Below are positions 8,740-41,728 of a DNA stretch of 64,000 nt, in pieces. This DNA is from Acinetobacter portensis (lineage in GTDB: Bacteria > Pseudomonadota > Gammaproteobacteria > Pseudomonadales > Moraxellaceae). A model generated the notes under the pieces. It had not been told where the DNA came from, did no database searches, and saw only the letters and a program-made list of their open reading frames with translations. A program made the translations under genes and the position numbers. Location: positions 1,302,001-1,366,000 of the forward strand of contig NZ_CP096120.1 of assembly GCF_023158935.1 (NCBI RefSeq), in the 5' to 3' direction. How positions within the stretch are numbered: the stretch's first letter is position 1; the number at the start of each line of letters is the position of its first letter.

Positions 8740-9396
8740 ATGGCACAGTTTGCTGTCATTGGATTAGGCAGTTTTGGCGCAACAGTTGCAACAGAACTTG
8801 TTGGTTTAAAACATGATGTTATTGGCATTGATATTGAAAAAAAATATGTAGAAAGCATTTCCGATGTGCTTACACACTCCGCTATTGCCGATGCAACCGA
8901 TGAGCATGTTTTAGATGAACTCAATATTACCCAATGTGATGCTGTAGTGGTTGCAATTGGTGAAGACATTGAAGCCAGTATTTTATGTGTGTTACATCTT
9001 AAAAATTTAGGTGTAGAAAAAATTTGGGTAAAAGCAAAATCTAAAGCACATCACATGATTTTGACTCACTTAGGTATTTGTAAAATTATTCATCCTGAAG
9101 AAGATATGGGTGTTCGTGTAGCGCAAAGCCTGAGCTATCCAATGGTAAGCCGTTATATGGCGCTCAATGATGACCATTATTTGGTTAAAGTTGAAATTAC
9201 AGAAAACTTAGCAGGTACACGCTTTCATAGCGTAATGGATCATGTTCCTGAAGTTCGTGCAATTTTGCATAAACGTGAACAAGAAATTATTTATAGCATT
9301 GACCCAAATTTAATTTTACAAGATGGCGATGTATTGGTTATTGAAGGCTCTATAGAACCTTTGCGTCGTTTATCTAAACACTTTACTGCAAAATAG
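8740..9396 (+). CDS. ktrA: Potassium uptake regulatory subunit, KtrA/TrkA type
   Basis: A peripheral, nucleotide-binding gating subunit of a Ktr-type potassium channel/transporter. Its 218 residues match single-copy KtrA (about 220) rather than double-length TrkA. Residues 1-135 are the RCK_N Rossmann domain with GLGSFG (8-13) and the acidic end of strand 2 (GIDIEKK). Residues 136-218 are RCK_C. It binds ATP/ADP or NAD(H) in characterised relatives. Its stop lies 10 bases before the TrkH/KtrB-type gene, so the two form an operon. GGAAGAACT precedes the ATG. The Ktr name is chosen on length and pairing; general annotation might call it TrkA. Confidence 0.88.
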   Translation: MAQFAVIGLGSFGATVATELVGLKHDVIGIDIEKKYVESISDVLTHSAIADATDEHVLDELNITQCDAVVVAIGEDIEASILCVLHLKNLGVEKIWVKAKSKAHHMILTHLGICKIIHPEEDMGVRVAQSLSYPMVSRYMALNDDHYLVKVEITENLAGTRFHSVMDHVPEVRAILHKREQEIIYSIDPNLILQDGDVLVIEGSIEPLRRLSKHFTAK

Positions 9397-9406
9397 GAAT
9401 ATTCCT

Positions 9407-10747
9407 ATGAAGCAATTTCGTAATAAACAAAATAATACAGTTAATTTAAGCCCACCAAGTTTATTGGCGCTAGGATTTCTAAGCTTTATTATTTTGGGAA
9501 CTTTTCTATTAAAGCTTCCTTTTGCAAATCACGGTGATTTATCTTGGTTTAATGCCTTATTTACCGCAACTTCGGCAGTCACCATTACAGGACTTTCTGT
9601 AGTAAATGTAGGTGAAACTTATACCGTTTTTGGAAAAGTGATTATTATGATGCTTATTCAATGTGGCGGTTTAGGTTTTATGACCTTTGCCATATTGGCA
9701 GCGTTAAGTTTGTCTCCAAAAATTGGCTTAAAACAACAAGTTATGGCGCAAGACACTATTGGGCAAACCAGTTTATCTAAAGTGTCATTTACCATTAAAG
9801 GTGTACTGCTTTATTCATTATTTTTTGAAGCCATTGGCACGGTTATTTTAACCATCGCATGGATGGAAGATTACGACTTTGCTAAAGCTTTTTTCTACGC
9901 CGCATTTTATAGTGTTTCAGCTTTTAATAATGGTGGATTCTCTTTATTTCCCAATAGCTTAATGAGCTTCCACGACAAGTACTTTATTACCTTTACCATT
10001 AGTATGTTGTACATTATTGGCGGTATTGGCTTTGTAGTACTCATGGATATTAAACGTGCCAAACGTTGGAAAAAATTGTCTGCAAATAGCAAACTCATTA
10101 TTTCAACTATTGCAGGTTTGAACTTAGTTGCATTTATTCTTTTATGGGCAATTGAAGCAAATAATCCATTAACTTTAGCACCAATGAGTATGGGCGATCA
10201 GGCTCTAAATGCTTGGTTCCATGCCACAGTTCCCCGCTCTTCAGGTTTTAACAGTTTAGAACTAAGCAATATGAGCGGTGCTTCCACTCTTATCACCATG
10301 ATTTTAATGTTCATTGGTGGTGGCTCTTTAAGTACCGCGGGTGGTATTAAAGTTGGAACATTTATCATTGTTGTTTTAAGTGTAATTACCTTTTTAAGAC
10401 GCTCTGAAGAACTACGTATTTTTAATCACTCTGTAGCAAAAGCAACATCATTTAAAGCACTTGCTGTGGTTTCAATTACGGCAATTTTAATTTTTATGGG
10501 GCTATTTAGCTTATTGCTTTTAGAACCTAATCATCACTTTTTAGACTTACTTTTTGAAGCTGTTTCTGCTGCTTGTACGGTAGGTTTATCACGCGGGATT
10601 ACAGGTGAATTACAACCTGCAAGTTTATTTATTTTAATGTTGCTCATGTTTGCAGGCAGATTAGGGCCTTTAACCCTGGCATATTTAATTGCAACACCTA
10701 AGAAAAGTCGTATTAAGCATCCACAAACAGATATTCAAATTGGTTAA
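9407..10747 (+). CDS. ktrB: Potassium transporter membrane subunit, KtrB/TrkH type
   Basis: The membrane pore subunit for sodium- or proton-linked potassium uptake. The 446 residues carry four repeated M1-P-M2 units typical of the Trk/Ktr/HKT superfamily. The first selectivity-filter loop is seen in ATSAVTITGLSVVNVG, the second near SAFNNGGFSLFPNS, the third near PRSSGFNSLELS and the fourth near SAACTVGLSRGITG. The glycine-rich intramembrane gate segment GGGSLSTAGGIKVGTF is also present. It follows ktrA by 10 bases and ends at a bidirectional terminator. Length and pairing with a short RCK protein favour KtrB over TrkH. Confidence 0.88.
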   Translation: MKQFRNKQNNTVNLSPPSLLALGFLSFIILGTFLLKLPFANHGDLSWFNALFTATSAVTITGLSVVNVGETYTVFGKVIIMMLIQCGGLGFMTFAILAALSLSPKIGLKQQVMAQDTIGQTSLSKVSFTIKGVLLYSLFFEAIGTVILTIAWMEDYDFAKAFFYAAFYSVSAFNNGGFSLFPNSLMSFHDKYFITFTISMLYIIGGIGFVVLMDIKRAKRWKKLSANSKLIISTIAGLNLVAFILLWAIEANNPLTLAPMSMGDQALNAWFHATVPRSSGFNSLELSNMSGASTLITMILMFIGGGSLSTAGGIKVGTFIIVVLSVITFLRRSEELRIFNHSVAKATSFKALAVVSITAILIFMGLFSLLLLEPNHHFLDLLFEAVSAACTVGLSRGITGELQPASLFILMLLMFAGRLGPLTLAYLIATPKKSRIKHPQTDIQIG

Positions 10748-10778
10748 TGTTTGCTTGTTGTCCTTTTCATAAGCCAGT

Positions 10779-10807
10779 AAAAAGCCACTTCTAAAAGTGG
10801 CTTTTTT
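10779..10807. terminator. Bidirectional terminator between ktrB and pldA
   Basis: AAAAAGCCACTT and AAGTGGCTTTTT form a stem with a four-base loop, with T runs in both directions. It separates the convergent ktrB and pldA genes. Confidence 0.85.
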
Positions 10808-10823
10808 ACATCTAAATTTTTAA

Positions 10824-11948
10824 TTAATACCAATCGAGCAAAGACACACCTAAACCAACATAAGTTGCTTTGTGGTTATAGTCGATTAAGCTTTCACCAT
10901 AACCATGAAACAATTGAAATTTACCACGCAAACGCCCGCTAATTGGGAAGTTCCAATCGAACTGAGCCGCACCACGTGAATCATCACCGCCTTTTAAGCT
11001 ATGACGTAGCATCAAACTAAAATCTTGATCTTTATAACGATAAAATGCGGTTAAATCACCACGACCAATATAATTTTCAATATCTGGATTATTGTCATCT
11101 TCGGCATTTTCAGAAATTCTGAACCAAGGGCGAACAATCATTGCAAAGTTTTCTCGTTCAAAACCAACATTCACAATGACACGATTCCAACTACGTGACC
11201 AAGGATCTGAACGACCATTCGATTGATGGTTAAAAGTTAATCCCAATAAACGACCATTTAAACCAAACATTTCGTAATTTGTACGGAACATTAAACTCGC
11301 TTCAGGTTCGTAATTGGTTTCACGAAATGGACGAGATTCATCGCTGTTATACATTTGCCAACGAGATGATTGCGTATAACCCACCCATAAATCACCGTTA
11401 TTGCCAAAAATACTTTCAAATGCTTTGGTTTTTAATGAAAGTTGATATTTCATTTCCGTTGAATCTAAAGGCATAGCTTCATCGGGACTAATTACATTTT
11501 GTGAATTACCGCTTGTAGGCTGTTCATGCTTCTTAGATGTCCAAAATGCGGGAAGAACATATACAGGCTGATATGCGCGAACTTGCCATGTACCAAGTTT
11601 ACTTTCAGGTGAAAGCTCCCAACGGCTATCTAACAAAGATGTATTTGGAGTAAATGTTGCCGCTTCTACAGCAACAACATTGTTCTTAATTTTATCTGCG
11701 AAGCTATCTGTTTCAGAACTTAGTGAAAGTGCTGCTTCACGCTCTGAAACCAATGGCTGAACATCTGTAGTTGGAACTTTAAATAGCGCATCATAACAAG
11801 CGAGTCGATCTGCATTCGATTGTAATGCCACACATGCATCTGCACTTGCAGGCGAAATTTCACCTGCTGCATGAAGTTGCATCATAGAAGCAGATCCAAG
11901 TAAAACTGTACTTAAACCCAATACAACTGGCTTATTTTGAAATGGCAT
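10824..11948 (-). CDS. pldA: Outer membrane phospholipase A
   Basis: A calcium-dependent phospholipase A1/A2 of the outer membrane that removes misplaced phospholipids from the outer leaflet. The 374 residues comprise a signal peptide (cleavage near LHAAGE, residues 26-30), an N-terminal region of about 90 residues with a paired-cysteine segment (CVALQSNADRLACYDALF) and a 12-strand barrel ending in the C-terminal aromatic DWY. The active-site motif is complete: His241, Ser243 and Asn255 in NHQSNGRS and SRSWNR have exactly the spacing of His142, Ser144 and Asn156 in E. coli OMPLA. The extra N-terminal region makes it longer than E. coli PldA (289). It lies 28 bases downstream of the M16 peptidase gene and may share its transcript. 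Confidence 0.95.
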   Translation of the reverse strand: MPFQNKPVVLGLSTVLLGSASMMQLHAAGEISPASADACVALQSNADRLACYDALFKVPTTDVQPLVSEREAALSLSSETDSFADKIKNNVVAVEAATFTPNTSLLDSRWELSPESKLGTWQVRAYQPVYVLPAFWTSKKHEQPTSGNSQNVISPDEAMPLDSTEMKYQLSLKTKAFESIFGNNGDLWVGYTQSSRWQMYNSDESRPFRETNYEPEASLMFRTNYEMFGLNGRLLGLTFNHQSNGRSDPWSRSWNRVIVNVGFERENFAMIVRPWFRISENAEDDNNPDIENYIGRGDLTAFYRYKDQDFSLMLRHSLKGGDDSRGAAQFDWNFPISGRLRGKFQLFHGYGESLIDYNHKATYVGLGVSLLDWY

Positions 11949-11976
11949 TTAAAGCTCCTCTTATAATTTTATTGGC

Positions 11977-14916
11977 TTAATTAACTTGCTTAATTTCAAA
12001 ACCAAGTTCTTGCAATAATTCACGTTTTGCAATTGGCGCAACAACTGACTTAGAAGGCTTTTGCTGACGTAAATATACATCTGCAACACGTTTTAAGTCA
12101 TCTAAATTCACAGCCAATAAACGTTCACGTAATTGCGCTCTAAATGCAGGTGTACGCGCATGTAATAATGAATAACATGCTGTAATTGCTTCGCCCGCAG
12201 GAGAACCTGGTTTATCCATGCTTGCAATTAAGCCCAAAATCGCTTCTTCAAGCTGATGCGGTTGTTGTTCTGCATTAAACAACCAATCTACACTTGCTTC
12301 AAAGTCTTGGAATGTTTCAGCTAAACGTGGGTCACGGTAGCTATAGAAGCGGAATGAACATGCATTACCGTCATAGCTTGCACCACCACCATAAGCACCG
12401 CCTTTTTCACGAATAGCACTATGTAAGAAACCATTACGTAAATACGCAGCAAGCACCATCAATGGTGCAGCATCAGGATGTGACACTTCTACCGCAGCAT
12501 AAGCAGATGAACAGAATTGAACATTCGCTTGAATCAACCATGCTTCATCATTCTCGCTATTTTCAAAATTCACTTGAGTAAGTTCAGCATCAATTTGATC
12601 AATGGCTAACTTATCCCAAACATTTTGGATTTCTTCAATTAAACGATCAGATTGATGTTCTTCACAAACCAATAAGAATTGTTTTGGTGCTTTCAATAAA
12701 CGGTTATGAATCACTTTTAATTCTTGAATAAGGTGATTATAAGCAGCTTCATCATTTTCGATTTTGCTTACTAATTCGCCCAACCAATTTAATGCGCCTA
12801 AACCTGTTGTATTGTAATCACGTAGCGCTAAAGCACTGTGGTTACGCCCTGCAATTTGCATTGCATAGCTATGACCCGAACCAGATAAGCGTGAAGACCA
12901 ACGTGTTTTACGTTGCTGTAAAAGCTCAATAATGCGATCTTTTTCATCGAAACGTAATTGTTCAAAAGCAACTTTCAATAAGCGAATTGCTTCTAAGTTA
13001 TTCACTAAAGATTTCGTTGTTAGCGTCAACCAAGCTGTAATTTTACCTTTATCGTCCACTTTAGAACGTAAAGATGCACCCATACCAATGCCACCGCTTA
13101 CCGCAGTTTGCAATTGTTGTAGTTCTAAATAACCATATTCACCTGCGCCAACTTCGCCCATTAAAATAGACATTAAGTTGAAGTATGGAGATTTTACAAT
13201 TTCATCCGGAATTTGAATAAGCACTTGATTGTAATAAATACCATTTGTACCTGCATGATATAAATTCAACGGCGTATCTAAACGATTCGAAATAATTTCA
13301 CGTAATTGACCTTGAACAATATGCATTTGTGCGGGCACATCTTCTAAGCCAACTTTTGGCAATAAGTTCAAATCATCAGGTGTATCTTGACGAATTTTTA
13401 AAGCCTCAGTTTGTGCAATAATTTCAGCTTTATCTGCTTCTGTTAGTTTTGCACCAATTTCAGCTAAACGTGCTTTTTCTTCTTCGGCTTCTTTTGCAGA
13501 TTTTGTTGCATCGGGCACTAAAGTCATTTGCACACGATGTGGATTATCAATTAAATGTTCTTTAATTAAGTTAGACAACCACATTGGGTCTTTTAACTCT
13601 TCTTTTACATTGGCAATTGCTGTATCTACATCCCATACATCTACAGGATCTGAATGGTGAATTGCGCTGCTTAAGCCATTTAAAATTAGGCTTAAACCAT
13701 ACGGCATACCATCGCCATTAATTTCACGTTGATGCAATTCAATTTGATGCAAAATCGCATCAACCATTTGTGAATCTACAGGTTTAGATGCAACATCTTC
13801 TAGAACTTTAAATACACCATTTTTAAATTCTTCAGCATGTTCAGGATTTGAACCTTGTACGCCACAATAGAATGTCATTTCATAGTTAGAATCATCTACG
13901 CCCATAATTGGACCTGTAGATTGTGCGTATCCACAAGTTTCTAAGTAATGACGCAATGGTGATGCAGAATCTTCAAGTAAAATACCTTCGACAAGACGCA
14001 TGCCTAAACGAATTTTAATGTCGCTTGCCTGTGGCAATAACCAAGAAATAATGTGATAAGTCTTGTCTTTTAAGTCTTCAGCATCTACAGCATAGGTTTC
14101 TGTTACTGCAATTGGCGCTGCTAAACGTGTTTCAGGCTTAGAATGAAGCGTTTCACCTTTATCGAATTTAGACAAAGCCAAAGTTTCAAATTGCTCTTGA
14201 AGCTTATGTGCAGGTTCATTACCAAAAGTCATAAACACCGCATTACTTGGATGGTAATGCGATTTATAGAAACCTACTAACTCATCGTAAGTTAAGTCAG
14301 GAATATCTTTAGGATCACCACCTGAATTGTAGTGATACGTTGTTTCAGGGAATAAATGATGTGCCAATTGATGATACAACTGATCTGAAGGTGAACTCAT
14401 TGCACCTTTCATTTCATTAAATACTACGCCTTTATATACAGGCTCACCATTTTCTAGCTCAATACGAATACCTTCTTGCGCAAAATCTAAAGGATTTAAA
14501 TTTGCTGCAAAAGTTGCATCTAAATAAACTGAAAGTAGGTTTTGAAAGTCTTTTTTGTTTTGCGTTGCAAATGGATACGCTGTCCAGTCTGCCGATGTAA
14601 ACGCATTCATAAAGGTATTTAATGAACGACGAATCATTAAAAAGAATGGGTCACGTACAGGGAATTTTTCAGAACCGCAAAGTGCGGTATGTTCAAGAAT
14701 ATGCGCTTCGCCTTTTGAATCCATAGGTTGCGTGCGAAATGCAACTAAAAACACGTTTTCGTCATGATTCGTTGCTAAGTGATAATGCACCGCACCTGTC
14801 ACTTTATGTTTATATTCGCACACTAATATGTCTAAGGCTTCAACATGGTGTTGACGTACCAACTGAAACGCTGGATGAACAGTTTGAGTAATAGTTTCAG
14901 TGACATCTACAGTCAT
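11977..14916 (-). CDS. M16C zinc metallopeptidase (presequence-protease-like)
   Basis: A pitrilysin-superfamily peptidase of 979 residues with no signal peptide, so probably cytoplasmic. The inverted zinc motif HILEH gives His72, Glu75 and His76, and Glu168 in GVVFNEMKG is the likely third ligand. The length and the EHTALCGSEKFPVRDPFF segment match the PreP/Cym1 (M16C) group, in which two halves close over short unfolded peptides. A late EKGGAYGGGASYDG segment is the substrate-binding Arg/Tyr-type motif of the C-terminal half. Expected role: degradation of signal peptides or other oligopeptides. It lies upstream of pldA on the same strand with 28 bases between them. Confidence 0.92.
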   Translation of the reverse strand: MTVDVTETITQTVHPAFQLVRQHHVEALDILVCEYKHKVTGAVHYHLATNHDENVFLVAFRTQPMDSKGEAHILEHTALCGSEKFPVRDPFFLMIRRSLNTFMNAFTSADWTAYPFATQNKKDFQNLLSVYLDATFAANLNPLDFAQEGIRIELENGEPVYKGVVFNEMKGAMSSPSDQLYHQLAHHLFPETTYHYNSGGDPKDIPDLTYDELVGFYKSHYHPSNAVFMTFGNEPAHKLQEQFETLALSKFDKGETLHSKPETRLAAPIAVTETYAVDAEDLKDKTYHIISWLLPQASDIKIRLGMRLVEGILLEDSASPLRHYLETCGYAQSTGPIMGVDDSNYEMTFYCGVQGSNPEHAEEFKNGVFKVLEDVASKPVDSQMVDAILHQIELHQREINGDGMPYGLSLILNGLSSAIHHSDPVDVWDVDTAIANVKEELKDPMWLSNLIKEHLIDNPHRVQMTLVPDATKSAKEAEEEKARLAEIGAKLTEADKAEIIAQTEALKIRQDTPDDLNLLPKVGLEDVPAQMHIVQGQLREIISNRLDTPLNLYHAGTNGIYYNQVLIQIPDEIVKSPYFNLMSILMGEVGAGEYGYLELQQLQTAVSGGIGMGASLRSKVDDKGKITAWLTLTTKSLVNNLEAIRLLKVAFEQLRFDEKDRIIELLQQRKTRWSSRLSGSGHSYAMQIAGRNHSALALRDYNTTGLGALNWLGELVSKIENDEAAYNHLIQELKVIHNRLLKAPKQFLLVCEEHQSDRLIEEIQNVWDKLAIDQIDAELTQVNFENSENDEAWLIQANVQFCSSAYAAVEVSHPDAAPLMVLAAYLRNGFLHSAIREKGGAYGGGASYDGNACSFRFYSYRDPRLAETFQDFEASVDWLFNAEQQPHQLEEAILGLIASMDKPGSPAGEAITACYSLLHARTPAFRAQLRERLLAVNLDDLKRVADVYLRQQKPSKSVVAPIAKRELLQELGFEIKQVN

Positions 14917-34630: not shown

Positions 34631-34950
34631 GTTTATATCCTTTTTTGAATATGAATAAGTCTATATTTTTCATTGAAAATTACACTGTTATGTATAAAAC
34701 GATATGTTGCAAATATGGAACGATTGATTGTTATTAATTTGTAACTAAACAATTGAATCACATAATAAAAATATGTGATTACTACAAAGCTTTATTTATC
34801 AAATGGTCAAGTATCACAGCTACTAGAATTTGCGGTTAAACATAGCACCTTATTGTTAATGTTTCGTATTAAGGTTTACATAACTTCACCATAGCTTCTT
34901 TTTTTCTTATTTATCATTTGTATATAAGTCAAATAAATAATAGGCATATT
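34631..34950. other. Divergent intergenic region between yceI and mqo
   Basis: 320 bases carrying both promoters and no gene I can support. It contains an inverted repeat of AATCACATA (34756-34764) and TATGTGATT (34772-34780) with a 7-base spacer, about 170 bases before mqo. Nothing else stands out beyond high AT content. Confidence 0.6.
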
Positions 34951-36594
34951 ATGAAGAAGTTTCTCAAATATCTACTTATTCTAGTCATTATATTATTCAT
35001 TATTGGGCTCATTTTCTTATTTAGACCAATTGCATCTAAACCTGTTAAATCTGCTTCAGATGAAAAAGTATTAGATGTTGTACTCATTGGTGGCGGCATT
35101 ATGAGTGCCACATTAGGGACCTATTTAAATGAACTTGAACCTAATTGGAATATCCGAATGTATGAACGTTTGGATGCTGTGGCAGAAGAAAGTTCGAAAG
35201 GTTTAAACAATGCGGGTACAGGTCACTCTGGTTTTATGGAGATGAACTATACCCCTGAAAAAGATGGCAAAATTGATATTAAAAAGGCGATAGATACCGC
35301 ATCTCAATTTGAAGTGAGTAAGGAATTTTGGTCTTATCAGGTTAAAAATGGCGTACTTGGGCAACCAAAGAGCTTTATTAACCCTGTTCCTCATATTGCT
35401 TTTGTTTGGGGTGATAGCGTTCCGTATATGAAAAAACGCCATGAAGCCATGACTCAAAATCCAATGTTTGAAGGGATGAAATATTCAGAGAATCCTGAAG
35501 AAATTAAGCAATGGGCACCTTTAGTTATGCAAGGTCGTGATGCTTCGCAAAAAGTTGCAGCAACACGTATGGATGTTGGTTCAGACGTTAACTATGGTTC
35601 TATTACCACTCAGTTAATTAACAACTTAACAAAACAAGATCAATTTAAACTTGAAACATCAACTGAAGTTACAGGCATTAGCCGTAACGATGACAATACG
35701 TGGACTGTTTCTGTTAAAAACTTGAAAACAAACACAACAAGTCATGTGAAATCTAAATTTGTATTCATTGGTGCAGGTGGCGCAGCAATTCGTTTACTAC
35801 AAATGACAGGTTTAGAAGAAACTAAACAATATGCGGGCTTCCCTATTGGCGGTATTTTCTTAATGACCGACAATCCTAAAGTGACGGCTATGCATACCGC
35901 TAAAGTATACGGAAAGCCTGAATTGGGTGCGCCTCCTATGTCTGTTCCGCACATTGATACGCGTTATATTGATGGTAAAAAATATGCTTTGTTTGGTCCT
36001 TTTGCGACATATTCAAATAAATTCTTAAAACATGGTTCTCAGTTCGATTTAATGGATTCGACCAACAAGAACAATGTTATTCCAATGGCAACAATTGGTT
36101 TAGAGAATTTAGATTTGGTGAAATACTTAATTAGCCAAGTTGCAATGACGAAAGAAGATCAATTTAACGAGCTTAAAAAGTATTATCCTGAAGCGAAAAT
36201 TGAAGATTGGACATTAAACCAAGGTGGTCAACGTGTTCAAATTATTAAGAAAGTGCCAGGTAAAGATGCAACTTTGCAATTTGGTACTGAAATTTTTGCC
36301 TCTAAAGATGGTTCTGTAACTGCGTTGTTGGGTGCTTCTCCGGGTGCTTCGACTTCTCCATACATCATGTTAAGTTTGATGGAAAAAGCCTTCCCTGAAC
36401 AAGTAAAAGGTAAATGGAATGGCAAGTTGCATGAAATTGTTCGTTCTTATGGGCAAGATTTAAGTGCTAACCCTGCTCTTTTAGATCAAATTCGTACTTA
36501 TACTAGTTCAACTTTAGGTTTGAATTATACGCCTACGCGCCATGCAGCTAATGATTCTACTGCGGTTGTTCCCGCTGTTGCGAATGCAAAATAA
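34951..36594 (+). CDS. mqo: Malate:quinone oxidoreductase with N-terminal membrane anchor
   Basis: Oxidises malate to oxaloacetate and passes electrons to the quinone pool, using FAD. 547 residues from the ATG at 34951; an earlier in-frame start at 34918 has no better binding site. Residues about 7-27 are a hydrophobic anchor not found in E. coli Mqo, which is peripheral. The FAD loop [17 protein letters not shown] follows, then [11 protein letters not shown], and near the C terminus [13 protein letters not shown]. It faces the yceI gene divergently and ends at a strong terminator. It could be the main malate oxidation route beside fumC and acnB. Confidence 0.95.
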
Positions 36595-36660: not shown

Positions 36661-36876
36661 TTATTCGATGTCATACACCCAGTTTCGGGCTTGTTTATCG
36701 GTGATGGTTTCACAAACGTAATAGTCGTGATCCCATGCGTCAGGATGAAAAATGTCTTTTTTTGTGTAGGTGACATTCTTGCCTTTTTCGACACAGACAA
36801 AGCTGTCGCCTTGGTCTTTGACTTGGGTTCCATTTAGGAAACCACCAATACAGAGGAAGCGGGATTGTTTTGCCAT
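36661..36876 (-). CDS. Uncharacterised 71-residue protein
   Basis: Begins MAKQSRFLCIGGFLNG and ends KQARNWVYDIE. It is soluble, with three cysteines and several aromatic residues in the second half (DAWDHDYYVCE). No family recognised. It starts 35 bases after the stop of the nuclease-like gene on the same strand, so the two may be co-transcribed, and it ends at the terminator shared with mqo. No strong ribosome binding site is visible. A competing frame at 36648-36833 on the same strand looks less protein-like. Confidence 0.55.
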   Translation of the reverse strand: MAKQSRFLCIGGFLNGTQVKDQGDSFVCVEKGKNVTYTKKDIFHPDAWDHDYYVCETITDKQARNWVYDIE

Positions 36877-36910
36877 TAATAAATAATCTTAATCAATTTC
36901 GATAATTATA

Positions 36911-39025
36911 CTATGAAGCTAATTTATCTAAAATCTTTTGAATATTATGTTCGTAATTGCCAATCTGTTTCATCCAAAATGTATTACTTTCAATCAAATT
37001 AATAAACTGTATTTGATCAATTTTCATGTTTTCTTGTTCCTCAAAAAAAGAACTTTGAACCAATGAATTTATAAAATCCATATTACTACTCAGCATAATA
37101 ATGGCTTCATCCATAGATATCTTTAAATGTTCTCCAAAATATTCATGATCAAATTCTAATGTAGTATCTATAATCCAAGAGTGAATTTTTACATCATTTA
37201 AATTTTCAAAATATTGATTTAAAAAATTATCTCTTACGTGAGATACTTTTTTCGAAAGTTGATAAGCTGCCTTATTTAAAGTGAAGTTTCGATATTCATA
37301 AATCTCTTGAATACTACTTTTAATATAAGTTGATTTAACCTCAGCTACGATCACATGGTTTTCGCATATAGCTATAAGATCAATTTCACCAACTTCTCTA
37401 TCTAAAGGCTGATATTGGCAAAACACTCGAAATCCAGCATTCTGAAATTTTTCAGCCAAATTTAACTCAATATTATCTGTTTCACTTCTTAGCTCTAAAC
37501 GATTTTTATGTAATTTACGAACATAATTAATCATAGCTGTATTCAAATTTTGATATGCTGTAAGCCATGCAAATTGAAAAATAAAATCATCAATTTTATA
37601 AAATGGTTTTTGTTGAAATGTAGAATGATCATCTTCACGATACAGATCACAAGTCCAAAAATTCAAAATTTGTTCCATTTTATTTTTTTTGACAGTATTT
37701 GAACTTCCTTTTACCCACGAGGACATTCTTTTAATCTTTTCTTCTTGTCTAGCAAATGTGAATGGCATTCTATTTTCACCTATCACAAAACCATGCATAG
37801 TAAGTTGCGTTAAGGCATGTAAATTAGTTTCTGAATGAGATAAGAAACTCATAAATTTTTCAATATGATCTTTTAAAAAATGTGCTTGTGACAAAGTAAT
37901 AGTAATCATTGTTTCATAAACATCAAGCTTTTGATTACTAATACTGAACTGAGTAATACCATACACTTGAGCCAGCTGCTCTTGAATACCAAATGCTTTT
38001 GATAATGCAACGGCATTAGCTTCTAAATTATCACCTGTATTTATAATGCTGTGTATAGCATCAGAATTTAGTAATTTTTCAGTACCAACACCCAGCCAAT
38101 AGCTTATTAGTAATGAATTTTTCTCTGACCAGTGATCTTTTTCTTGTGTATTAGCGTAAATTAATTCTGAATTTTTCAGCTCATAATTTACCTGCTTATT
38201 AAAACTAAACGACTCAAGTACATTTCTTTTATAATTAATAATCTCAATTTCTATAGCTACAAGCTTTTTATACAATTCATACTGTTTTTGAAGTTGTAAA
38301 GTCATGCCATTACCAATTAAGAAAGGCATTAATTTACTTTTCAGTGCCAAAGCTATCGATTGATCAGTTAATTTTTTAGTATTTCTTCGAGAGGTTTTAA
38401 CAATTTCATCAAAAGCCTTCCAAACCGTTTCTGCTGAATTCTTTTCATTTTTATCAAATTGATATGGCAAATATTCAAAATAATCCTGATTTGGAATCAA
38501 ATATTCATAAGCATAGAGACTACCAAAAGACATAGCAGTGATTTGCCCCATATTTAGCTCATTTTTTATCTCTTCATAAATTTCTAATCGATGATTATAT
38601 TGTGCATGTAAATAATCCACAGTCTGAAAAAATATAGATAGTGTTTCATTGTTAACTTCTTGTTCAATTTCCTTAAGTACAGACCATGAATGATGTTCAA
38701 TATTAAGAATTATCCCAGAATAACGTACCGCTAAAATAAAACTTTGAACATCAAGTTTTAAAAAATTTAGACAGATGTTCTTATCAATCAAATTAAAACG
38801 AATATATTGGCTTAATCCGAGAATATAATTTTCACTTTTGACATCATCAATAGTTAATAATTTAATAAAACTTGATTGCCAGAACATATCAAATTTACTT
38901 TTAAAACTTCTACTTTGAGGTTGTGAACTTTTATATAAGAGGTCTTCTACAATTTTTTCTTTTGCAATCTCAGCCCCATATTCCAATAACAGAGACTCAA
39001 ATTTATTTTCGTAATAATTTTGCAT
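36911..39025 (-). CDS. 704-residue protein with C-terminal PD-(D/E)XK nuclease-like domain
   Basis: No named family recognised. Residues 1 to about 510 are helical, with no motif I can assign, no membrane segment and no signal peptide. Residues about 515-620 form a restriction-endonuclease-like core: Glu525 in a helix (NLAEKFQNAGF), then GEIDLI with Asp549, then VIVAEVKS with Glu562 and Lys564, then a helix with Gln589. This is the D-x12-E-x-K pattern of PD-(D/E)XK enzymes. The gene is visibly more AT-rich than acnB beside it. Its ATG directly abuts the T tract of the acnB terminator and has no Shine-Dalgarno, so expression is probably by readthrough or from a later start. A defence or DNA-processing role is a guess. 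Confidence 0.75.
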   Translation of the reverse strand: MQNYYENKFESLLLEYGAEIAKEKIVEDLLYKSSQPQSRSFKSKFDMFWQSSFIKLLTIDDVKSENYILGLSQYIRFNLIDKNICLNFLKLDVQSFILAVRYSGIILNIEHHSWSVLKEIEQEVNNETLSIFFQTVDYLHAQYNHRLEIYEEIKNELNMGQITAMSFGSLYAYEYLIPNQDYFEYLPYQFDKNEKNSAETVWKAFDEIVKTSRRNTKKLTDQSIALALKSKLMPFLIGNGMTLQLQKQYELYKKLVAIEIEIINYKRNVLESFSFNKQVNYELKNSELIYANTQEKDHWSEKNSLLISYWLGVGTEKLLNSDAIHSIINTGDNLEANAVALSKAFGIQEQLAQVYGITQFSISNQKLDVYETMITITLSQAHFLKDHIEKFMSFLSHSETNLHALTQLTMHGFVIGENRMPFTFARQEEKIKRMSSWVKGSSNTVKKNKMEQILNFWTCDLYREDDHSTFQQKPFYKIDDFIFQFAWLTAYQNLNTAMINYVRKLHKNRLELRSETDNIELNLAEKFQNAGFRVFCQYQPLDREVGEIDLIAICENHVIVAEVKSTYIKSSIQEIYEYRNFTLNKAAYQLSKKVSHVRDNFLNQYFENLNDVKIHSWIIDTTLEFDHEYFGEHLKISMDEAIIMLSSNMDFINSLVQSSFFEEQENMKIDQIQFINLIESNTFWMKQIGNYEHNIQKILDKLAS

Positions 39026-39026
39026 A

Positions 39027-39060
39027 AAAAATAAGGGCTGATTAATCAGCCCTTATTTTT
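39027..39060 (-). terminator. Terminator of acnB, abutting the next start codon
   Basis: A perfect 34-bp palindrome built on AAGGGCTGATT, with long A and T runs at its ends. It lies 28 bases after the acnB stop, and its far end is one base from the ATG at 39025 of the nuclease-like gene. Confidence 0.92.
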
Positions 39061-39088
39061 AACTCATATTACTTTAATTTTCAACAAA

Positions 39089-41728
39089 TTAAGTTAACTG
39101 AGCAGCAGCAATTTTCTTAGTATCAACATCTTTAGCAGCGTTTGTATAGTCGCTCATTTTGTCGAAGCTTAAGTATTGGTAAATATCAGCAGACATGCTG
39201 TCAATTTGAGCAGCATATTCTTGATATTCCGCAGGAGTTGGTAATTTACCAAGTACCGCAGCAACAGAAGCAAGTTCAGCAGAAGCTAAGTAAACGTTAG
39301 CACCTTGACCTAAACGGTTCGGGAAGTTACGAGTAGAAGTCGAAACACAAGTTGTGTTCGGAGCTACACGTGCTTGGTTACCCATACATAATGAACAACC
39401 TGGCATTTCAGTACGCGCGCCAGCTTTACCATAAGTATTGTAAAAACCTTCTTCCATCAATTGACGCTCATCCATACGAGTTGGTGGAGCAATCCACAAA
39501 CGAGTATTTAATACGCCACCAGGAACTTTCTCTAACAACTTACCAGTTGCACGGAAGTGACCAATGTTAGTCATACATGAACCAACAAACACTTCGTCAA
39601 TTTTCACGCCTTGAACGTCAGATAACAATTTCGCATCATCTGGATCGTTTGGACAACAAAGAACTGGCTCAGTAATTGTAGCTAGGTCAATTTCATACAC
39701 TTTCGTGTATTCAGCGTCAGCATCAGCTTTAAGAAGTGATGGGTTCGCTAACCATTTTTCCATGTTCTCAACACGACGAGCCATAGTACGCGCATCGCCA
39801 TAACCTTCAGAAATCATCCATTTCAACATAGTAATGTTTGATTTAAGGTATTCAGCAACTTTTTCTTCAGAAAGCGTGATAGAACAACCAGCAGCTGAAC
39901 GTTCAGCAGAAGCATCAGAAAGTTCGAATGCTTGCTCAACAGTTAAGTCAGTTTCCATTTCTGTTAAGTCGATTTCTAAAATACGACCAGAGAAGATGTT
40001 TTTCTTACCTTTCTTCTCTACAGTTAAGTCACCTTGCTGAATCGCAACGTAAGGAATTGCATGTACTAGGTCACGTAGAGTGATACCAGGTTGCATTTTA
40101 CCTTTGAACTTAACAAGAACAGATTCAGGCATGTCTAGTGGCATAACACCAGTTGCAGCAGCAAACGCTACAAGACCAGAACCCGCTGGGAAAGAAATAC
40201 CAATTGGGAAACGAGTATGCGAGTCACCACCAGTACCAACTGTATCTGGAAGAAGCATACGGTTTAACCAAGAGTGGATAATACCGTCACCTGGACGTAA
40301 AGACACACCACCACGGTTCATGATGAAATCAGGAAGCGAGTGTTGCATTTGAACGTCAACTGGCTTTGGATAAGCAGCTGTATGACAGAAAGATTGCATA
40401 ACAAGGTCAGCAGAGAAACCTAGGCAAGCTAAGTCTTTCAATTCGTCACGAGTCATTGGACCTGTTGTATCTTGAGAACCAACAGTTGTCATCTTAGGTT
40501 CGCAGTAAGTACCCGGAAGTACACCTTGACCTTCAGGAAGACCACAAGCGCGACCAACCATTTTTTGAGCTTGAGTGAAGCCTTTACCAGTAGCAGCAGG
40601 CTGAACTGGTACACGGAATAAAGTAGAAGGTGCAAGACCTAATTCTTCACGTGCTTTAGTTGTTAAGCCACGACCAACGATTAAGTTGATACGACCACCC
40701 GCACGAACTTCGTCAAGAAGAACTGGAGTTTTAAGTTCAGCTTCAGCAATAACAGCGCCATCTTTAGATGCAGTTACTTTTGCAGCAGCGTGATCGATGT
40801 TTAGAACGATTTCATCGCCCATGTTCATGTTAGCAACATCAATCTCGATTGGTAACGCACCAGCATCTTCCATTGTGTTGAAGAAAATTGGAGCGATTTT
40901 AGAACCTAGGCAGTAACCACCGTCTTTTTTGTTCGGGATGTGAGCAATGTCATCACCAAAGAACCAAAGAACAGAGTTAGTTGCAGATTTACGAGATGAA
41001 CCTGTACCAACAACGTCACCAACGTAAGCAACTTGGTTGCCTTTAGCAACTAGCGCTTTAATTTGGCTTAATGGACCAACTTCACCTGGTTTTTCAGGGT
41101 TGATACCATCACGTTCGTTTTTAAGCATTGCGTTAGCGTGTAACGGAATGTCTGGACGGCTCCAAGCGTCTTGTGCAGGTGACAAGTCGTCTGTGTTTGT
41201 TTCGCCAGTTACTTTGAAAACTGTAAGTTTGATTTCTGATGGTACGTCTTTACGGCTTGTGAACCATTCAGCATCAGCCCAAGATTGCATAACCGCTTTT
41301 GCATTTGCATTGCCCGCTTTTGCTTTATCAGCAACGTCATGGAACGCATCAAATACAAGAAGAGTTTTCTTAAGTGCTTCAGCAGCTAATTCAGCAAGTT
41401 CAGCGTTATCAAGAAGAGCAACTAAAGGTGCTACATTATAACCACCAAGCATAGTACCTAGTAAGTAAACTGCACGTTCTTTAGAAACTAATGGAGAAGT
41501 ACATTCGCCATTTGCCAAAGCAGCCAAGAAAGCAGCTTTTACATAAGCAGCTTGGTCAACACCCGCTGGAACACGGTTTTCTAGTAAATCAACTAGAAAC
41601 GCTTCTTCGCCAGCTGGTGGATTTTTTAATAATTCAACTAATGCAGCTGTTTGAGCATCATCAAGTGGCTTCGGTGGGACTCCGAGTGCGGCACGTTCTT
41701 CAACGTGTTGGCGGTAAGCTTCTAGCAC
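39089..41728 (-). CDS. acnB: Aconitate hydratase B
   Basis: Isomerises citrate to isocitrate in the TCA cycle with a [4Fe-4S] cluster. In some bacteria it also hydrates 2-methylaconitate in the methylcitrate cycle. 879 residues (E. coli 865). The AcnB order of domains is present: an N-terminal HEAT-like domain (1 to about 160), the swivel domain with VGTGSSRKSATNSVLWFF, and the catalytic domains with the cluster ligands in FVGSCMTNIGHFR and CSLCMGNQARV. The start is a GTG at 41728 with AGAGGAA 8 bases upstream; it gives MLEAYRQHVEERA, as in E. coli. A structured leader precedes it (41747-41793). Confidence 0.97.
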   Translation of the reverse strand: MLEAYRQHVEERAALGVPPKPLDDAQTAALVELLKNPPAGEEAFLVDLLENRVPAGVDQAAYVKAAFLAALANGECTSPLVSKERAVYLLGTMLGGYNVAPLVALLDNAELAELAAEALKKTLLVFDAFHDVADKAKAGNANAKAVMQSWADAEWFTSRKDVPSEIKLTVFKVTGETNTDDLSPAQDAWSRPDIPLHANAMLKNERDGINPEKPGEVGPLSQIKALVAKGNQVAYVGDVVGTGSSRKSATNSVLWFFGDDIAHIPNKKDGGYCLGSKIAPIFFNTMEDAGALPIEIDVANMNMGDEIVLNIDHAAAKVTASKDGAVIAEAELKTPVLLDEVRAGGRINLIVGRGLTTKAREELGLAPSTLFRVPVQPAATGKGFTQAQKMVGRACGLPEGQGVLPGTYCEPKMTTVGSQDTTGPMTRDELKDLACLGFSADLVMQSFCHTAAYPKPVDVQMQHSLPDFIMNRGGVSLRPGDGIIHSWLNRMLLPDTVGTGGDSHTRFPIGISFPAGSGLVAFAAATGVMPLDMPESVLVKFKGKMQPGITLRDLVHAIPYVAIQQGDLTVEKKGKKNIFSGRILEIDLTEMETDLTVEQAFELSDASAERSAAGCSITLSEEKVAEYLKSNITMLKWMISEGYGDARTMARRVENMEKWLANPSLLKADADAEYTKVYEIDLATITEPVLCCPNDPDDAKLLSDVQGVKIDEVFVGSCMTNIGHFRATGKLLEKVPGGVLNTRLWIAPPTRMDERQLMEEGFYNTYGKAGARTEMPGCSLCMGNQARVAPNTTCVSTSTRNFPNRLGQGANVYLASAELASVAAVLGKLPTPAEYQEYAAQIDSMSADIYQYLSFDKMSDYTNAAKDVDTKKIAAAQLT

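Follow-up and report, generated by a model that had tools for sequence, protein, structure and literature searches.

A gene directly behind acnB in the Acinetobacter portensis genome, here called X, rather probably encodes a stand-alone nuclease that acts against phages or invading DNA; its predicted structure, and a profile comparison over its linker and nuclease, suggest a compact protein related to the C-terminal half of the defence protein Upx. We analyzed a 64,000-nucleotide stretch of this genome (hereafter, the window), in which X is a 704-aa minus-strand open reading frame (ORF; 36911-39025) that lies between acnB (39089-41728, minus strand) and mqo (34918-36594, plus strand), just where an earlier sequence-only reading of the same DNA had placed it. 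X is a single gene, with a predicted helical N-terminal part and a C-terminal PD-(D/E)XK nuclease. Both the ORF list and a genus search make acnB the conserved left neighbour of the slot that holds X, and a slot comparison showed the mqo-like gene to be a right flank common to some relatives with other slot genes.

The GC content of X is 27.9%, the lowest among the 34 window ORFs that reach 200 aa (median 37.3%) and well below the 43.0% of acnB, in line with the greater AT-richness relative to acnB that had been noticed before. X has one copy in its own genome. The dN/dS values lay between 0.10 and 0.22 (15 pairs from six Acinetobacter copies, with dS saturated in many pairs), so that X looks maintained by purifying selection. 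X is a real gene, apparently kept by selection, and patchily spread.

Predicted fold and active site of X

The AlphaFold2 model of X, built with 44 sequences, has a mean pLDDT of 87.4 and a pTM of 0.86; in it, the N-terminal ~510 residues are mostly helical and a PD-(D/E)XK fold lies at the C-terminus. Pfam, structure, profile comparison and alignment all point to a nuclease core in residues 508-640 (37106-37504, minus strand), with E515/E520, D549, E562-x-K564 and Q589. We aligned 50 relatives, which were open frames hand-selected from plasmid, genus and collection matches; the set excludes copies that are disrupted, short or duplicate, among them the disrupted or multi-frame matches seen at seven of 59 collection loci. 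E520, D549, E562, K564 and Q589 are invariant in all 50 aligned relatives, and G546 and E547 are kept in 49. The D549...E562-x-K564 signature recognised in the sequence-only reading is therefore borne out among these selected relatives, with the residues as placed, but Glu525, which had been singled out as the helix residue, is a glutamate in just 19 of the 50; it is E515 and E520 that are invariant in this helix.

The Pfam NERD model (PF08378) matched X with an E-value of 3.5e-4 and 21.5 bits, against a cut-off of 22.1, in hmmscan, and with 26.6 bits, above the cut-off, in a six-frame genome search. NCBIfam gave weak YraN matches only, no PADLOC family matched X at E <= 10, PHROGs gave none for X, and Pfam placed no ATPase or helicase domain in it. 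Three more NERD matches above the cut-off were found in the same genome (C6:33898-34140, C6:109239-109574 and C1:825940-826158), one of which sits within a 1753-codon frame. The modelled fold and the invariant D549, E562 and K564 make X a member of the PD-(D/E)XK superfamily; the restriction-endonuclease-like fold proposed from the letters alone is thus supported by the AlphaFold2 model and by the borderline NERD match.

A Foldseek search of the PDB with the whole model of X returned a single match at E <= 0.001, 9wuf (E 3.3e-5), which is the cryo-EM structure of Upx. The same kind of search among viral models gave no match at E <= 0.001. The structure prediction and search proposed in the sequence-only reading thus ended on Upx as the top match and on no housekeeping family. 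VIA-align also aligned the whole of X with 9wuf, placing residues 107-638 on Upx 769-1266 (Z 10.7, 348 residues, rmsd 7.1). Matches to the nuclease alone followed close behind, such as AF1548 with Z 10.3 over 113 residues. Because the nuclease might by itself carry the Upx match, we modelled residues 1-506 alone (pLDDT 88.0). Foldseek found no match for this part at E <= 0.001 (best E 0.94), which does not show that the predicted fold is new. In a second look with VIA-align, Upx again came first, with residues 126-506 of X aligned on Upx 752-1106 (247 residues, 8% identity, rmsd 4.9). The Z of this alignment is 8.5, with the following row at 6.1, and a value of 8.5 between helical models may reflect a mere common arrangement. 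The Upx ranges in the whole-model match and in the match of residues 1-506 overlap and have the same order.

According to these models, X may be divided into three parts. Residues 1-125 (38651-39025, minus strand) are predicted to be helical and weakly resemble HEAT/ARM-type repeats in structure, with non-Upx rows at Z 6.1 or less, inside the common-arrangement range of the tool. Residues 126-506 (37508-38650, minus strand) would form a helical module like Upx residues 752-1106, and the nuclease core follows. The agreement between the two models gives good but not conclusive support for the fold of the Upx C-terminal half. Thus, the description of some 510 helical residues belonging to no assignable family stands as far as the helices of the model are concerned, but not for residues 126-506, which resemble part of Upx.

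The place behind acnB

X lies behind acnB in all eight Acinetobacter genomes that carry it, although the contig of one (G156) has just a short part of acnB and in another (G164) X itself is split over two contigs. A match to acnB was found in all 173 genomes searched. We read the place behind acnB in 104 slots, namely 100 fetched slots, the window and three relatives; the fetched slots were chosen by acnB similarity, room on the contig and, in two cases, presence of X, and are not a random sample. X is present in six of the 104. The slot is occupied in 90 and empty in 14, when the first occupant is taken as the first ORF of at least 90 aa outside the 18 commonest clusters. These first occupants fall into 48 sequence clusters, not all of them unrelated, since a few are fragments or distant relatives and some are transposases, and 79 of the 90 have the same direction as acnB. 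The stretch at 36890-39088 of the window, like its counterparts in L115-L214, is in other words a site just past the acnB terminator whose content varies greatly within Acinetobacter.

Several of the occupants have defence-type domains. With one representative per cluster, the 25 of 34 Pfam families listed include PDDEXK_4, putAbiC, AAA_15/AAA_21 with an OLD-like TOPRIM, GmrSD_N, Mrr_cat, DUF4365, SLFN_AlbA_2, HEPN_RiboL-PSP and Abi_C, together with four transposase families and ordinary enzymes. Ten representatives were chosen for a closer look: seven contain a nuclease, Abi or OLD domain of this kind, a further two match AAA or SMC models only weakly, and the tenth is without any such match. 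The 48 slot occupants matched 161 PADLOC families, compared with 33 matched by 45 window genes, which leans to defence; these counts are not rates, given that one GajA/Old-like protein can match dozens of models.

The acnB terminator hairpin AAGGGCTGATTAATCAGCCCTT (39033-39054, minus strand) is followed by an A/T-run at 39026-39032, and the ATG of X comes directly after it, at 39025. The terminator pattern occurs at one place in the genome even with up to three mismatches allowed. We compared the window with ten slots, mostly chosen for a common mqo, using the approximate ends of local alignments. Homology on the left stops exactly at the base before the X ATG in four of the ten (L115, L117, L123 and L134), 49 or 1 bases before that base in L161 and L194, and 1, 2, 12 or 27 bases past it in L192, L162, L195 and L127, respectively. 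The right-hand homology begins again 14 to 41 bases past the X stop in six slots (L115, L127, L161, L123, L117 and L134) and 91 to 269 bases past it in the other four. The homology comparison with these ten slots puts the right edge at a 71-aa ORF (36661-36876, minus strand), and in six of the ten the resumption falls between the X stop and a few bases past the start of this ORF.

The closeness of gene and terminator is common in these slots. A terminator was recognised for 78 first occupants on the acnB strand, of which 53 start within 25 nt of the hairpin (in three of these, the ORF start was called upstream of the hairpin end) and 56, from 25 clusters, within 40 nt. With a single hairpin detector, a start within 25 nt behind a terminator-like hairpin was seen for 51 of the 71 first occupants that reach 150 aa, compared with eight of 375 other ORFs of these regions; within the window, hairpin proximity flagged two of 54 ORFs, X and one spurious-looking case. 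Given that the ATG of X directly follows the T-run of the acnB terminator, there is no space for a promoter between the two. Therefore, judging from the sequence, X should be transcribed either from a promoter in the acnB 3' region or as an extension of acnB transcripts that read through the terminator. A weak promoter-like element, TTGAAA-17-TAAAAA (39056-39084, minus strand), may lie just upstream of the hairpin; its score of 9.0 is reached by 10% of 50 shuffles. In 64 of 103 slots, the top-scoring site was a sigma-70-like element with its -10 box ending within 2 nt of the hairpin; the mean score was 8.50 compared with 7.49 in shuffles, and only 47 of the 103 reached p <= 0.1 singly, in slot sequences that are related and AT-rich.

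We also noted variation around the terminator. OLD-like occupants (cluster C22, in L120, L144, L160 and L161) lie behind a different terminator, AAAGC.CCACTT.GGTGGGGCTTT, and in L202 a C22 gene follows the common terminator; on occasion, terminator and slot gene may move together. A short element, TGAGCTAGGA..AAGAAAAGCCGAAAGGCTTTTCCCTAGCGCAAGAGC.., with variants, was seen between the acnB stop and the terminator in L117, L126, L141, L142, L152 and L153, and also in L156, L168, L171, L197 and L032. A general array of stacked cassettes with repeated acnB terminators was rejected, with a clear second copy in one of 94 slots; L134 has a 41-base partial repeat of the acnB terminator.

Comparison of the flanking gene with its occupant gave a further hint. 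Nucleotide identity of acnB between the window and L023 or L032 is 91%, and 87.6% for L022, while the window copy of X is 69.0%, 70.7% and 72.4% identical to the copies in L023, L032 and L022, respectively. This small discordance fits an exchange of X without proving it. Based on these features, we put forward, tentatively and as an idea that could well be wrong, that the acnB 3' end in Acinetobacter may be a resident capture-and-expression site, in which a promoter-like element is merged with the terminator and promoterless single genes, many of them for defence, are swapped ORF for ORF in a start-codon-precise slot that would serve the whole genus as an exchangeable immunity site. X would then be one such cassette, and the defence catalogue that we searched would so far lack this compact Upx-like nuclease. 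If the slot works as it looks, it would offer a genus-wide address for finding new single-gene defences and a testable case of the exchange and expression of promoter-less single genes.

Distribution and possible role of X

X was found in eight of 175 Acinetobacter genomes, that of A. portensis included; the genus search gave nine matches at E <= 0.001, one of which (G147, E 1.3e-4 over 68 residues) was judged spurious. Six of the eight copies are full length, that of G164 is split as described above and that of G138 is interrupted, being broken after about codon 515 by an insertion of ~1 kb (L136). The insertion holds a 341-aa ORF on the opposite strand, which is transposase-like by sequence inspection. 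Presence or absence at the acnB locus had been suggested as a check, and these counts show that not all relatives have conserved the gene. A housekeeping role was set aside on this distribution.

In a family-wide sample, X was present in five of 149 genomes, two of them Acinetobacter. A pattern-based scan of a species-level collection gave at least 59 loci, which is a lower bound, nearly all of them in gamma- and betaproteobacteria. Eight plasmid records, from Arcobacter, Vibrio, Aeromonas, Pseudomonas and Rhodoferax, also have a match. X is thus no orphan, as it had first been called. Phage records contained no relative, and a scan of IMG/VR with the single X sequence, which finds close relatives only, gave none that was confirmed; a phage origin was rejected on these results. 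The patchy presence, the other genes at the same spot, the low GC content and the plasmid-borne relatives all support the earlier suggestion that X is a laterally gained accessory gene.

Outside Acinetobacter, relatives of X occupy many different places. When the ORFs of 80 aa or longer at the 59 loci, 922 in all, were clustered, no cluster other than X turned up in more than six loci. A conserved partner gene was therefore rejected, and X appears to be a single-gene unit without an obligatory neighbour. Eight neighbour proteins from six of the 59 loci, picked for their defence-like look and hence giving no rate, were all PADLOC-positive: Avs3a (L067), DruE3 (L049), a DrmD-like helicase (L060), GajA and GajB (L059), a cytosine methyltransferase with a REase (L050) and DpdD (L064). 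Gabija, Druantia, DISARM, Dpd and Avs are the systems represented among them. Near and far neighbours were not separated by Pfam, with defence and mobile-element domains in both lists, in a comparison of the top 25 families listed. This comparison drew on 39 of the 59 loci and set 125 near ORFs, which remained of 136 once 11 large ones had been removed, against 103 far ORFs; many ORFs of high-GC loci are probably spurious frames. We also observed that two Rhodoferax loci (L067 and L070) have a shortened relative of X (412 open codons) after a 2139-aa gene and a 250-aa ORF; the 2139-aa gene is Avs3a by PADLOC in L067, and that of L070 is equal in size and start. On an Arcobacter plasmid (L014), the relative of X belongs to a gene run that also includes the annotations SbcCD-like, DUF2779 and dGTPase.

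Upx as the best structural match points to defence, and the candidacy for a defence or DNA-processing factor, raised in the sequence-only reading, is supported by this match and by the defence-gene neighbours, the function itself being inferred. We propose that the helical part (residues 1-506) may restrain a metal-dependent nuclease and may recognise something that is made or injected by the invader; the engaged nuclease would then cut the DNA of the invader, or all DNA in the cell. Given that Pfam placed no ATPase or helicase domain in X, the gating should be by binding rather than by ATP-driven movement.

The alternative that fares best is that X is an altruistic effector, which upon infection destroys the DNA or RNA of its own cell and does not attack the phage directly. 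This overlaps with our preferred reading, in which the target is left open. The related folds include the cOA-activated nucleases of the Can2/Card1 type, and the helical part could be a sensor. However, the 59 loci have no conserved neighbour and hence no conserved signalling or antitoxin partner, and we regard this alternative as unlikely, though deserving of attention. It seems still less likely that X is a barrier to incoming plasmid or transforming DNA instead of phage, cutting foreign DNA at entry. Acinetobacter is widely transformable, and the PD-(D/E)XK fold and the NERD-type domain would suit such a role, but relatives of X are themselves carried on plasmids and the evidence is equally compatible with phage defence.

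We also considered a host nuclease for DNA repair or recombination that has been retained in some lineages. Structural neighbours of X include Hjc resolvases, EndoMS and AddAB nuclease domains. In addition, five Psychrobacter loci (L026, L027, L029, L030 and L033) share one chromosomal place with the same two flanking genes, MoxR-type ATPase-like and VWA-like, in all five. Such a common place would also fit a cellular role and is a counterpoint to the defence reading. However, 166 of the 175 Acinetobacter genomes have no match to X at E <= 0.001 and other genes occupy the place behind acnB in X-less genomes, so that we consider this role improbable. In Psychrobacter, X lies within 50 bp between the two genes (~9092-13362; names by sequence inspection), and perhaps splits a usual MoxR-like/VWA-like pair. 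Finally, a selfish homing-type nuclease that cuts X-less acnB 3' ends and copies itself in would agree with the constant place of X in Acinetobacter and with the homology that ends exactly before its start codon in four of ten comparisons, but 47 other clusters, several without a nuclease domain in the Pfam list, occupy the same place and relatives in other genera lie at many different places, which makes it very improbable.

X, Upx and other known systems

Several known families resemble X in the nuclease part. The annotations of some relatives on plasmids name them NERD or nuclease-related-domain proteins, and the PADLOC model for Viperin-associated NERD, PDLC02906, matched two of four family members scanned (L026 and L043, E 2.6e-16 and 1.4e-14), but not X or L014. 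What NERD and PDLC02906 have in common with the X family is the nuclease core, the match in L026 and L043 spanning the nuclease and its flanks; the long helical part of X lies outside the NERD model. Likewise, AF1548, the R.BspD6I small subunit, McrC, FokI, Hjc and Can2 match by the nuclease fold, with Z of about 7 to 10 over ~90 to 156 residues, and for other PD-(D/E)XK nucleases the match is essentially the nuclease core. In contrast to type II restriction-modification, X has no conserved DNA methyltransferase partner at the 59 loci, and no ATPase is conserved beside it there either. The open-licence literature matches listed contained no description of the X family or of the acnB slot, which is weak evidence of absence.

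Upx was reportedly first described by Gao et al. in 2020, as a single-gene defence protein. The PADLOC model for Upx, PDLC02221, has a match in one of 390 Pseudomonadales genomes, and the ORF at this locus (L228) matches 9wuf with an E-value of 1.3e-130. We aligned this ORF with five plasmid-borne relatives, all six rows matching PDLC02221. In a single profile-profile comparison with X, residues 469-637 of X, comprising a beta-hairpin linker and the nuclease, matched Upx (probability 85, E 5.9e-6), and in a second comparison the N-terminal part of X gave no match (probability 0.1). The PDLC02221 HMM matched neither X nor any other part of its genome, and a search with the 50-row X profile did not list 9wuf at E <= 10, though 9wuf was within the searched set.

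Like X as modelled, Upx has a helical module, then a beta-hairpin linker, then a PD-(D/E)XK nuclease, and it too is one large gene with plasmid-borne copies. The differences are in length and in sequence. X has 704 aa compared with 1,271 positions in the Upx model; no part of X matches the ~750 N-terminal residues of Upx, the two structural alignments beginning at Upx 769 and 752, and sequence homology is detectable over residues 469-637 of X only. We thus do not class X as an Upx; judging by model and sequence, it seems to be a compact protein akin to the C-terminal half of Upx. As such, a 704-aa protein would show the minimal working unit of Upx and would be a tractable protein for studying its mechanism.
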